From: an uncultured Clostridia bacterium
Lineage (GTDB): Bacteria; Bacillota; Clostridia; TANB77; CAG-508
NCBI GenBank assembly: GCA_944392445.1
Contig: CALXWT010000012.1
Coordinates: forward strand, 1 to 41,079
Direction of reading: 5' to 3'
DNA length: 41,079 nucleotides
Part shown: piece by piece, positions 34,207 to 39,800 of the stretch
Layout of the letters: each line of letters starts with the position of its first letter
Position numbering within the stretch: position 1 is the stretch's first letter
Made by a program: the position numbers and the translations under genes
The notes under the pieces: generated by a model
Told to the model about the DNA's origin: nothing
Seen by the model: the letters and a program-made list of their open reading frames with translations, nothing else
Database searches by the model: none

Positions 34207-34917
34207 ATGGCAGAGTTTTTTAGAAGAGTAGAAAAAAAATATATTATAAATAAAGAACAATTCGAAATAATACAAGACAGAATGCAAGATAAAATGATTG
34301 AAGATAGTTACGGCAAAAGTAAAATATGCAATGTGTATTTCGATACACCAAATTATGACCTAATTTCACATTCAATACAAAAGCCAGTATATAAAGATAA
34401 AATTAGGCTTAGAAGTTATAATGAGCCTACAGAAAAAGATAGTGTGTTTTTAGAAATAAAAAGAAAATATGATGGAGTGGTTAGCAAAAGAAGAATTAAG
34501 CTACCATTAAATGAAGCATATAAATACATTTCGGGAGAAAAAATAGAAACAAAAGATGTGCAAGTACAAAACGAAATAGACTATTATTTTAAGTATTTTA
34601 ATTTGCATCCAACAATGTTCTTATCCTATGATAGAATTGCATATTATGACAAAAACGATTCTAAATTTAGAATAACATTTGACACAAATATAATAGCTAG
34701 AAACTATGATTTAGCACTTGAAAAATGTGATGAAGGCAAGCCTATTTTTGAAGAAGACAAATATATAATGGAATTAAAAACACTTGGAGCAATTCCACTT
34801 TGGCTTGTAGATAGTCTAACAGAAGAAAATATTTTCCCTTGTGGATTTTCAAAATATGGTGAAGCATATACACAAATAGTACTTAATGCTAATTGTGTAA
34901 AAAAGTATGTTATATAA
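34207..34917 (+). CDS. VTC-domain (polyphosphate polymerase-like) protein
   Basis: The 236-residue protein consists of one VTC domain (PF09359), the tunnel-shaped fold of the yeast polyphosphate polymerase Vtc4. It has the basic N-terminal EKKYIINKEQF, then NVYFDTPNYDLI, KIRLRSYNEP, FLEIKRKYDGVVSKRR, and ELKTLGAIPLWL near the end, which together supply the basic and acidic residues that line the tunnel. Whether the bacterial version makes polyphosphate is not shown. It is followed by a DUF4956 membrane protein, a partnership seen repeatedly in bacteria and probably forming a membrane polymerase unit. AAAGGAGG lies just before the ATG. It is the first gene of a six-gene operon. Confidence 0.9.
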   Translation: MAEFFRRVEKKYIINKEQFEIIQDRMQDKMIEDSYGKSKICNVYFDTPNYDLISHSIQKPVYKDKIRLRSYNEPTEKDSVFLEIKRKYDGVVSKRRIKLPLNEAYKYISGEKIETKDVQVQNEIDYYFKYFNLHPTMFLSYDRIAYYDKNDSKFRITFDTNIIARNYDLALEKCDEGKPIFEEDKYIMELKTLGAIPLWLVDSLTEENIFPCGFSKYGEAYTQIVLNANCVKKYVI

Positions 34918-34944
34918 ATTGTAAAATAGAAAAGGAGATTAAAA

Positions 34945-35622
34945 ATGTTAAACAGTATTTTAAATGAAGGAACTATAGCGTCAGTTAGTTCCATTGACGT
35001 ATTAATTTGCATAGCAGTTGCGCTTGTATTAGGAGGAGTAATAAGTTTTATTCATAAACTGACCACAAAAACAACACAAAATTTTTTACTAACACTTGCA
35101 ATATTACCAGCTTTGGTACAGGTGGTAATAATACTAATAAATGGTAATTTAGGAACATCAGTAGCTGTTGCAGGAGCATTTAGCTTAATTAGATTTAGAA
35201 GTATGCCAGGAAATTCAAAAGAAATTATAAGTGTATTTTGGGCAATGGCAGTAGGCTTGGCATTAGGTATGGGATATATAGTATATGCAGTAGTATTTAC
35301 AGTAATTGTAGCTATAATTATTTTAATAGTAAATAAAATAATTGTAAGTAAAGATGAAAAAGTAAGAAGAAAATTAAAAATCGTAATTCCAGAGAATATG
35401 GATTATGACGATGTATTTAAAGATATTTTTGAAAAATACACAGATAAAGTTGAACTAAGCAGAGTTAAAACCACAAATATGGGAAGTATGTATGAATTAC
35501 TATACTATGTTGAAATGAAAAAGAGTATAAGTCAAAAAAGTTTCTTAGATGAAATTCGTTGCAGAAACGGAAATTTATTAGTAATGCTTGAAAGGGAGGA
35601 AATTGGAGAAATCGAATTATGA
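34945..35622 (+). CDS. DUF4956 membrane protein
   Basis: The 225-residue protein has about four membrane helices in the first 135 residues. Between them lies the family core GTSVAVAGAFSLIRFRSMPGNSKEI with an invariant-looking R-F-R. A cytoplasmic C-terminal ferredoxin-like domain follows (about 140-225). It resembles the membrane part expected next to VTC domains, so it could pass the polymer through the membrane. The gene follows the VTC gene by 27 bp and overlaps the next gene by 4 nt (ATGA), so translation is coupled across all three. Confidence 0.88.
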   Translation: MLNSILNEGTIASVSSIDVLICIAVALVLGGVISFIHKLTTKTTQNFLLTLAILPALVQVVIILINGNLGTSVAVAGAFSLIRFRSMPGNSKEIISVFWAMAVGLALGMGYIVYAVVFTVIVAIIILIVNKIIVSKDEKVRRKLKIVIPENMDYDDVFKDIFEKYTDKVELSRVKTTNMGSMYELLYYVEMKKSISQKSFLDEIRCRNGNLLVMLEREEIGEIEL

Positions 35623-37422: not shown

Positions 37423-38469
37423 ATGAATTACGTTGTTATTCCAGCTTATGAACCAGACGAAAAATTAGTGAATTTGGTAAGTGAACTAAAGAAATATCCA
37501 AAAATTAGAATAATTGTAGTTAATGATGGAAGTGGTAAAGCATATAGCAAATTGTTTGAACAGGTGGGGTTGTATGCTACAGTGCTAACTCACAGAGAAA
37601 ACTTAGGCAAAGGTGTAGCTCTAAAAACGGCTTTTAAATATATAAAAAAAATAAATTAATATGGAGTAGTTATTACTGCAGATTCAGACGGACAACATAC
37701 TCCAGAAGATATTATAAAAATTGCAAAAGAATGTGAGAATAAGAAAAATACAATTATTACAGGTGTAAGATGTTTTAAAGGAAAAGTTCCAATTAAAAGT
37801 AAATTGGGTAATAAAATAACCAAATATGTATTTTTATTATCCACGGGAATTTATCTAAAAGATACACAATGTGGCCTAAGGGCTTTTCATACTACATTAA
37901 TTCCGTTTATGTTAGAAACTAGAGGAAATAGATTTGAATATGAAATGAATGTATTATTAAGAACTACAAGAAACATAAAAATAGAAAAAGTTCCAATCGA
38001 AACTATTTATATAAATAATAATAGCAAAACACATTTTAAACCGGTAAAGGATGCATATATGATATATAAAAATATAATAAAATTTTCAATGTCTTCTATA
38101 ATTTCTTTTATAATAGACTATACATTATATACAATATTAGTAAATTTGTTTTCTACTATTAACACAACACTAAAACTAATTTTGGCAAATGTTATAGCAA
38201 GAATTATTAGTGCAAGTGTTAACTACATATTAAATAAAAAATACGTGTTTGAAGATAGTAAAAAGCATAACCAAACTGCCTGGAAATATATTTTGCTTGC
38301 AATAACTATATTGGCTCTAAATACAGGAATTATGCTTGGATTAGAAGTTATAGGATTAAATAATTTGTATATTTTAAAACTAATAACCGAAATAATTTTA
38401 TTTGGTTTAAGTTTTGTGGTGCAGAAGTTTATAATTTTTAAAAGAAAGGATTTACATGAAATTTTTTAA
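37423..38469 (+). pseudogene. GT2 (dolichol-phosphate mannosyltransferase-like)-GtrA fusion with one in-frame TAA
   Basis: The protein is about 348 residues. The N-terminal glycosyltransferase GT-A domain starts VVIPAYEPDE, has VVNDGSG and HRENLGKGVALKTAF, and keeps the metal-binding ADSDGQH after the interruption. From about residue 215 a GtrA-type domain with four membrane helices follows, a fold that moves or supports lipid-linked sugars. A TAA at 37657-37659 separates KKIN from YGVVITADSDG. The frame is unchanged on both sides, so it is a point nonsense change in a loop. The catalytic DxD lies after the stop, so the truncated part would be inactive. The ATG at 37423 is chosen for its spacing from AAGGAG. 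Confidence 0.85.
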
Positions 38470-39448
38470 AAAGCCATTTGTATATGCAATAATTTTTTCA
38501 ATATTGCTAACTAGCTTAAATGTATATATTTTACTAAAAACTTTTGTAATATCAGATGTAATTACAGTAGTAGAAACAAATATGGTTGATAATACAAAAA
38601 ATAATATATTAGAGGAAAGCGACGAAATGGTAGAAAATAACATATTAGGCGAAAGTAACGAAGTGGTAGAAAATAATAACGATGAAGCAGACGAAAAAAT
38701 TATTGAGAGTACAATTACAGATACGTCATATACTGACGAAAACATAAATATTTCTATTAACACAATTTATAGAAATAACACATACATTTATGTAGTTGAT
38801 GTTCAAATTTCATCACCAGAATACTTAAAAACTGCATTAGCGCATAATAGTTTTGGAACTGATGTAACACAAACTACCTCGGAAATGGCTAATGCAAACA
38901 ATGCAATACTTGCAATAAATGGCGATTACTATGGTGCAAATACGCGAGGCTATGTTATAAAACAAGGAAGCCTATACCGTAGTACAGTAAAAAGCAATAC
39001 AGAATATGAAGATTTAGTTATATATGAAGATGGTTCATTTGGAATAATAAACGAAACAGAAATATCAGCAGAAGAATTAATAGAAAAAGGAGTAGTAAAT
39101 ACTTTAACATTTGGTCCGACCCTAGTTTTAGATGGTGGTATTGTAGTTTCGGAAAATGATGAAGTAGCAAAATCTCAAGCAGAAAATCCCCGTACAGCCA
39201 TTGGAATAGTAGATAATCTACACTATATATTTTTAGTGTCAGATGGTAGAACAGAGGAGAGCGAAGGATTATCTTTATATCAAGTAGCAGAAATTATGCA
39301 AGAATATGGATGTAAAATAGCATACAACCTAGATGGTGGAGGTTCCTCAACATTATACTTTAATGGAAAGGTAATTAATAATCCAACAACTTCCGGAAGG
39401 ATAATTAAAGAAAGGTCGGTGAGCGATATTGTATACATTGGATACTAA
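38456..39448 (+). CDS. Phosphodiester glycosidase (NagPA-domain) family protein
   Basis: The 330-residue protein has an N-terminal membrane anchor (about 8-30), an acidic linker (about 40-85) and a NagPA/PF09992 domain (about 95-330). The domain shows AINGDYYG, TFGPTLVLDGG, NPRTAIGI, FLVSDGR and the family ending YNLDGGGSSTLYFNG. Members remove N-acetylglucosamine from phosphodiester links or act on exopolysaccharides, so it would work outside the membrane. The start overlaps the glycosyltransferase gene by 14 nt with AAAGGA upstream, so the genes are coupled. It may trim or transfer a sugar-phosphate in the product of this operon. Confidence 0.9.
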   Translation: MKFFKKPFVYAIIFSILLTSLNVYILLKTFVISDVITVVETNMVDNTKNNILEESDEMVENNILGESNEVVENNNDEADEKIIESTITDTSYTDENINISINTIYRNNTYIYVVDVQISSPEYLKTALAHNSFGTDVTQTTSEMANANNAILAINGDYYGANTRGYVIKQGSLYRSTVKSNTEYEDLVIYEDGSFGIINETEISAEELIEKGVVNTLTFGPTLVLDGGIVVSENDEVAKSQAENPRTAIGIVDNLHYIFLVSDGRTEESEGLSLYQVAEIMQEYGCKIAYNLDGGGSSTLYFNGKVINNPTTSGRIIKERSVSDIVYIGY

Positions 39449-39800
39449 ATCTATAAAGAAAACAATAAAGGTATATGCTATAATATCACTAATAAGCATC
39501 ATTTTTAGTTATGTATATGAACAGTTTAGCTATGGTGTATATTCATATTTTATGAGACTCTTATTTATTGTACCATTAGTAGGTGGTGTTATTATATATG
39601 GAGTAGTGTACTTAAAAAAAATTAAGGTCACTAGAATATCGTACAGCTTGTGGAATTCTGGAATTGCAATACTAATGAGTGGAATGCTTATAAGAGGAAT
39701 TATAAATATTTCGGGTAGGTATACAGAATATGATACAATTTATTGGGAATTAGGAACAATTTTTGTTTTATTAGCCATAATAATGCAAGCTAGTAAGTAG
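39429..39800 (+). CDS. Four-helix membrane protein, last gene of the VTC-linked operon
   Basis: The 123-residue protein has about four membrane helices and a short basic N-terminus (DTKSIKKTIK). It overlaps the phosphodiester-glycosidase gene by 20 nt and starts at a TTG with GGTGAG 6 nt upstream. I do not recognise a family. Its position as the terminal, translationally coupled gene suggests a structural partner of the operon's membrane complex. No terminator is obvious; instead a long inverted-repeat element starts 20 bp after the stop codon. Confidence 0.7.
   Translation: MYTLDTKSIKKTIKVYAIISLISIIFSYVYEQFSYGVYSYFMRLLFIVPLVGGVIIYGVVYLKKIKVTRISYSLWNSGIAILMSGMLIRGIINISGRYTEYDTIYWELGTIFVLLAIIMQASK

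Follow-up and report, generated by a model that had tools for sequence, protein, structure and literature searches.

We describe a cluster of six genes on the forward strand, at positions 34207 to 39800, of a 41,079-nucleotide stretch of contig CALXWT010000012.1 (hereafter the window) from an uncultured gut bacterium of the Clostridia. Gene content and recurrence in other genomes indicate that the association of these genes is real and conserved. The cluster consists of two modules. Module A is a VTC-DUF4956 pair plus one secreted protein, here of the Cthe_2159 type; module B holds, in this order, GT2-GtrA, NagPA and smTM, a small membrane protein with four predicted membrane helices. We tentatively propose that the modules co-operate in a cell-surface system, in which a polyphosphate-based polymer would be glycosylated or trimmed by module B. 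In the lineage of the window the set is probably being lost and no longer complete. The six genes are:

34207..34917, + strand: VTC-domain protein, polyphosphate-polymerase-like; 236 amino acids, intact; Pfam VTC E=8.6e-42
34945..35622, + strand: DUF4956 membrane protein; 225 amino acids, intact; Pfam E=5.3e-14
35619..37376, + strand: Cthe_2159 secreted beta-helix protein; Pfam E=1.4e-89 when read past the stop; pseudogene or nearly so (TAA in frame at 36537-36539)
37417..38469, + strand: GT2-GtrA fusion, polyprenyl-phosphate-sugar-synthase-like; Glycos_transf_2 6.9e-15, GtrA 3.7e-17; pseudogene or near it
38456..39448, + strand: NAGPA phosphodiester glycosidase with N-terminal membrane anchor (NagPA); 330 amino acids, intact; Pfam E=5.6e-39
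39429..39800, + strand: smTM small membrane protein; 123 amino acids, TTG start, four predicted helices, 12-member family

A first-pass annotation of this DNA had listed six tightly spaced genes on one strand. Their order, coordinates and common strand were confirmed, and so was the spacing, with overlaps of 4 nt (DUF4956/Cthe_2159), 14 nt (GT2-GtrA/NAGPA) and 20 nt (NAGPA/smTM) and gaps of 27 nt (VTC/DUF4956) and about 46 nt (Cthe_2159/GT2-GtrA). The picture of six working genes did not hold, since two are interrupted by a TAA. GT2-GtrA likely starts at the ATG at 37423. Five of the genes are supported by Pfam; smTM matches no Pfam family.

Recurrence of the six-gene set

Neighbourhoods were compared in a phylum sample of 398 genomes and at 61 sampled VTC loci. 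All six genes, contiguous and open, were identified at L094 (genome G499) and L151 (G323), which belong to two families other than that of the window, and this is more than chance would give. At both loci the order is GT2-GtrA, NagPA, smTM, VTC, DUF4956, Cthe_2159, such that the modules are swapped with respect to the window, and a two-component system lies divergently upstream. The GT2 copy of L151 begins later in the alignment than the other GT2 copies.

Module B as such also follows VTC. The smTM marker is found in 12 of the 398 genomes, 11 of which contain VTC as compared to 53 of the 386 others (Fisher p=9e-9), and at the level of families smTM and VTC co-occur in 8/9 (p=5e-5). smTM directly follows GT2-GtrA and NagPA at L094, L147, L148, L149, L150 and L151, and L147 to L150 keep the order GT2-GtrA, NagPA, smTM even with VTC elsewhere in the genome. 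NagPA and smTM adjoin a Cthe_2159 gene at L144 to L146 and, at L144, where neighbours were scanned, have as further neighbours a cation-diffusion transporter and a P-ATPase of the calcium type. Module-B NagPA forms a separate clade with 100/100 support, in which one member comes without smTM. In the family of the window, relatives of the generic NAGPA and GT2-GtrA kind are mostly found in other contexts. The conserved neighbourhood elsewhere that the first-pass annotation had suggested looking for is thus present, both as the full cluster at L094 and L151 and as a module B that tracks VTC.

It is hardly credible that the two modules are mere chance neighbours without functional meaning. Such an explanation would fit a full set that is rare and six-gene loci that do not group as sisters in the VTC tree, but it does not account for the same six genes, in the same order, at L094 and L151 from different families, nor for modules that co-occur without adjacency at the p-value of 9e-9.

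Module A across the phylum sample

VTC is present in 64 of the 398 genomes and adjoins DUF4956 in 59 of the 61 sampled loci. The gene nearby is CotH in 33 loci, Cthe_2159 in 22, both in 1 and neither in 7. CotH and Cthe_2159 are mutually exclusive (CotH only 32, Cthe_2159 only 21; Fisher p=1.8e-9), and the VTC tree shows largely one Cthe_2159 clade and one CotH clade, with few exceptions.

This pattern bears on a reading in which the modules act on the secreted protein itself: VTC-DUF4956 would give a phosphate donor or control for CotH or Cthe_2159, and module B would glycosylate or sugar-phosphorylate that protein. A third gene that is nearly always one of two unrelated and mutually exclusive secreted proteins, together with a VTC tree divided largely along the same line, speaks for it. 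So does the fact that CotH is an extracellular kinase family without an obvious ATP source outside the cell. However, no kinase or acceptor role is known for Cthe_2159, loci with neither protein exist, and module B is found with both CotH-type and Cthe_2159-type VTC genomes and is therefore not tied to one acceptor protein. We regard this reading as rather unlikely.

A two-component system lies near VTC in 28 of the 61 loci. The VTC-adjacent response regulators are orthologous, with 48-85% identity to the L094 regulator. The two-component system at 27921-29703 of the window was considered as regulator of the cluster and rejected: its regulator shares no more than 31-38% identity with the VTC-adjacent ones, so that this system rather resembles an independent ABC-transporter module.

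VTC-DUF4956-CotH triplets were identified at L080, L095, L110 and L131, flanked on one side by a two-component system and, at the other end or close to it, by a gene in opposite orientation. The three-gene arrangement of CotH, VTC and DUF4956 has been described as not found outside Pel (PMC12345266); our loci suggest that such triplets exist beyond the published Pel context, with the limit that no Pel-specific model was used here. L024 and L025, from the family of the window, show the layout MBL-VTC-DUF4956-CotH-709aa-HEAT-GT2-GGDEF/EAL, which resembles that of Clostridium perfringens NELoc-2.

VTC-DUF4956 might alternatively be a general accessory of exopolysaccharide export that regulates a synthase encoded elsewhere, with module B decorating the polysaccharide. 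Pel clusters indeed carry CotH, VTC and DUF4956 (PMC7112168), deletion of the DUF4956 and CotH homologues alters the amount of Pel (PMC12345266) and the L024/L025 layout is that of NELoc-2 (PMC2879425). Nevertheless, most of the sampled VTC loci, as well as the window, L094 and L151, lack a synthase recognised by the models used, none of them Pel-specific, and no polysaccharide synthase was detected with these among the Pfam-scanned neighbours of the cluster. CotH was found nowhere in the window genome (G000), which thus has no Pel-type CotH-VTC-DUF4956 set. An accessory role in exopolysaccharide export is, by this evidence, likewise rather unlikely.

As a separate observation, VTC-DUF4956-Cthe_2159 with a two-component system is found at L003 and L004 in Saccharibacteria genomes from ruminant gut, which suggests transfer to a reduced-genome lineage.

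Protein features bearing on function

The VTC protein scores 143.7 bits against a curated Pfam cut-off of 23 and its profile matches Vtc4 structures at 7.6e-24. Among 40 homologues residues R7, K11, K65, R67, R69, E83, K85, K94, R143, R155, D159, E189, K191 and S215 are invariant and K216 is conserved in at least 90%. Most conserved residues align to Vtc4 counterparts, and we take the invariant ones so aligned to be the basic tunnel-lining and the metal-binding positions. Since VTC keeps the Vtc4 tunnel residues, polyphosphate synthesis by this protein is plausible.

The AlphaFold model of DUF4956 (predicted local distance difference test, pLDDT, 82) has five membrane helices and a C-terminal cytosolic ferredoxin/ACT-like domain. 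Its best Foldseek matches include ACT/ferredoxin-like domains at E of about 0.01, which is not significant alone; the model is in line with the published MgtC/ACT reading of DUF4956 (PMC12345266).

Read across its stop, Cthe_2159 scores 300.3 bits against a cut-off of 25.8, and the L094 homologue matches the beta-helix structures 4peu and 4phb at 5.7e-46. GT2-GtrA, also read across its stop, has a GT2 domain with DxD and a C-terminal GtrA membrane domain, and is closest to polyprenyl-phosphate-sugar enzymes. NAGPA scores 134.5 bits against a cut-off of 25 and is similar to solved NAGPA/DUF2233 chains, with motifs NPRTA and NLDGGGS invariant in the module-B NagPA homologues. For smTM AlphaFold gives a four-helix model (pLDDT 91, predicted template modelling score 0.80); a fold search of the PDB yielded nothing significant (best E 0.7), and a likeness to VTC-complex chains was dismissed as evidence (E 1.5).

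Premature stops and decay

In Cthe_2159 the frame is broken after 306 amino acids by a TAA at 36537-36539 and continues beyond it; in GT2-GtrA an in-frame TAA lies at 37657-37659. Both stops are flanked on each side by homologous sequence in the same frame. Six GT2-GtrA homologues have an open frame and the Cthe_2159 homologues are open too. Recoding of TAA was rejected as unlikely, since 22 of the 32 genes checked in the window end in TAA.

The window genome (1.64 Mb in 92 contigs) has a single VTC gene, and none of the four congeneric genomes sampled has VTC. Within the family just one further copy of the whole set was found, in genome G103, and it is far more eroded: VTC and DUF4956 carry frameshifts, Cthe_2159 has an internal deletion, most of GT2 and the N-terminus of NagPA are gone, and smTM is open. 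The ratio of nonsynonymous to synonymous substitution rates (dN/dS) between window and G103 is 0.09-0.19 for VTC, DUF4956, NagPA and smTM and 0.3-0.4 for Cthe_2159. These low values suggest that the genes were constrained until recently and that decay is recent. Just upstream of the cluster, adjoining an ABC ATPase and a two-component system, an FtsX-like ABC permease (30481-33052) is frameshifted near 32290, giving 617 amino acids and then 259 in another frame. Two independent stops in neighbouring genes, the FtsX-like frameshift and the eroded G103 locus together point to real decay. With Cthe_2159 and GT2-GtrA interrupted, the system could be functional only in part in this organism.

Were the stops assembly errors, or were they read through, the operon would be fully functional here. 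The well-conserved sequence that flanks each stop and the purifying selection on the surviving parts agree with this. It is nonetheless quite unlikely, given that there are two independent stops, a frameshift upstream and an eroded relative, and that TAA is the usual stop in this genome.

A tentative mechanism

For the two-module surface system that we tentatively favour, we infer the following steps, as well as the polymer itself, from gene content and conserved active sites. The cytosolic VTC enzyme would synthesize an inorganic polyphosphate chain, as its fold and residues suggest. DUF4956 may anchor and regulate VTC, and it is the probable route by which the chain, or its signal, would cross the membrane. 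The secreted, membrane-anchored Cthe_2159 beta-helix would hold the acidic, probably calcium-laden polymer at the surface. GT2-GtrA is predicted to make a polyprenyl-phosphate sugar, and the four-helix smTM might aid its presentation outside, which is the weakest step. The membrane-anchored NagPA would target sugar-1-phosphodiester bonds formed on the phosphate polymer at the surface or on the carrier of that polymer. At loci that have one, the two-component system beside the cluster could control it.

Several observations weigh against this proposal. The full set is rare (apart from the window and its eroded relative, it was seen at two of the 61 VTC loci sampled) and its VTCs do not form one clade in the VTC tree. 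The cluster has no sugar-polymer synthase or ligase. Deletion of the VTC homologue in Streptococcus intermedius gave no reported change in aggregation, whereas deletions of the DUF4956 and CotH homologues alter it (PMC12345266). The stops were read from one assembly, without reads. Finally, genomes with both VTC and PPK1 number 18 in the phylum sample where 9 are expected (p=0.002). VTC as a replacement for PPK1 was rejected on account of this co-occurrence above expectation. PPK1 is absent from all 12 module-B or related genomes checked, but for module B alone its absence falls short of significance (p=0.23). PPK1 is neither a substitute for VTC nor incompatible with it.

The readings in which the secreted protein is the acceptor or in which VTC-DUF4956 serves exopolysaccharide export stand close behind that of a modified polyphosphate-based polymer. 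In its most specific form, with VTC-DUF4956 as polyphosphate synthase-exporter supplying the cell surface, module B both attaching and trimming sugars on the chain through sugar-phosphodiester chemistry and Cthe_2159 holding a glycosylated polyphosphate coat, the proposal is distinctly improbable. If VTC-DUF4956 does export polyphosphate, it would constitute a bacterial surface polyphosphate route separate from PPK1.

Neighbouring features

A further feature sets the cluster apart from the upstream gene:

34066..34092, + strand: intrinsic-terminator-like hairpin, 10-pair stem, T run

The scan for terminator-like sites found 4 of this 10-pair-stem/T-run type against 1.6 expected. Upstream of VTC, at 33566-34039, lies a 157-amino-acid membrane-like protein with no Pfam family, which occupies the same place in G103 (33% identity). 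A stand-alone Spo0A C-terminal DNA-binding domain of 117 amino acids, without receiver domain, is encoded at 33062-33415. Directly after the last gene, at 39820-40011, is a 192-bp element resembling a miniature inverted-repeat transposable element, with perfect 33-nt terminal inverted repeats; no copy was found in the loci from other genomes. Elsewhere in the window, a surface cluster at 12835-18590 encodes cellulosome-like parts, in a 1.6-Mb genome: besides a sortase and a cadherin-like protein there are a dockerin/Big_2/SH3 protein and a cohesin domain with a weak match.

Comparison with known systems

The first-pass annotation stated that no characterised pathway is known to have exactly this set. 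A literature search found no description of the six-gene set, nor of the Cthe_2159 form joined to module B, yet the VTC-DUF4956 part is in print (PMC7112168, PMC12345266, PMC2879425). The six-gene combination is so far undescribed, while VTC-DUF4956-CotH is already published, both beside Pel and in C. perfringens NELoc-2.

At the level of single proteins, the VTC fold and tunnel residues are common to the window protein and the yeast VTC complex (Vtc4 catalytic domain), but the former has neither SPX nor a fused membrane domain and its partner is the unrelated DUF4956. The window NagPA shares the NAGPA domain and catalytic motifs with human NAGPA and bacterial DUF2233, but represents a membrane-anchored subfamily linked to GT2-GtrA and a four-helix membrane protein. 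The beta-helix domain is common to Clostridium thermocellum Cthe_2159 (4peu, 4phb), although the cluster protein is roughly twice as long. For the known member, binding to cellulose and pectin acid is reported (PMC6712302), and no VTC link has been described for it.

The Pel accessory genes (CotH/polyphosphate polymerase/DUF4956/DUF4832; PMC7112168; SIR_1591-1594, PMC12345266) share with the cluster VTC-DUF4956, a secreted third protein and a surface context; they differ in having CotH instead of Cthe_2159, in being contiguous with pelDEADAFG and in lacking GT2-GtrA, NagPA and smTM. C. perfringens NELoc-2 is described as VTC, 'tubulin', CotH, a 685-amino-acid protein, HEAT and a chitin-synthase-like GT2 (PMC2879425). 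Judged by position and size the 'tubulin' is probably the DUF4956 gene, which gives the same VTC-DUF4956 pair as in the window. NELoc-2, however, has the CotH lineage of VTC, a polysaccharide synthase and a cyclic di-GMP enzyme and no module B, whereas the window has Cthe_2159 and module B in place of the layout VTC-DUF4956-CotH-HEAT-GT2. Pairs of VTC and DUF4956 are common across the sampled phylum and occur in the C. perfringens necrotic-enteritis locus and beside Pel; the mutual exclusion of Cthe_2159 and CotH and the link to module B are testable pointers to their targets.

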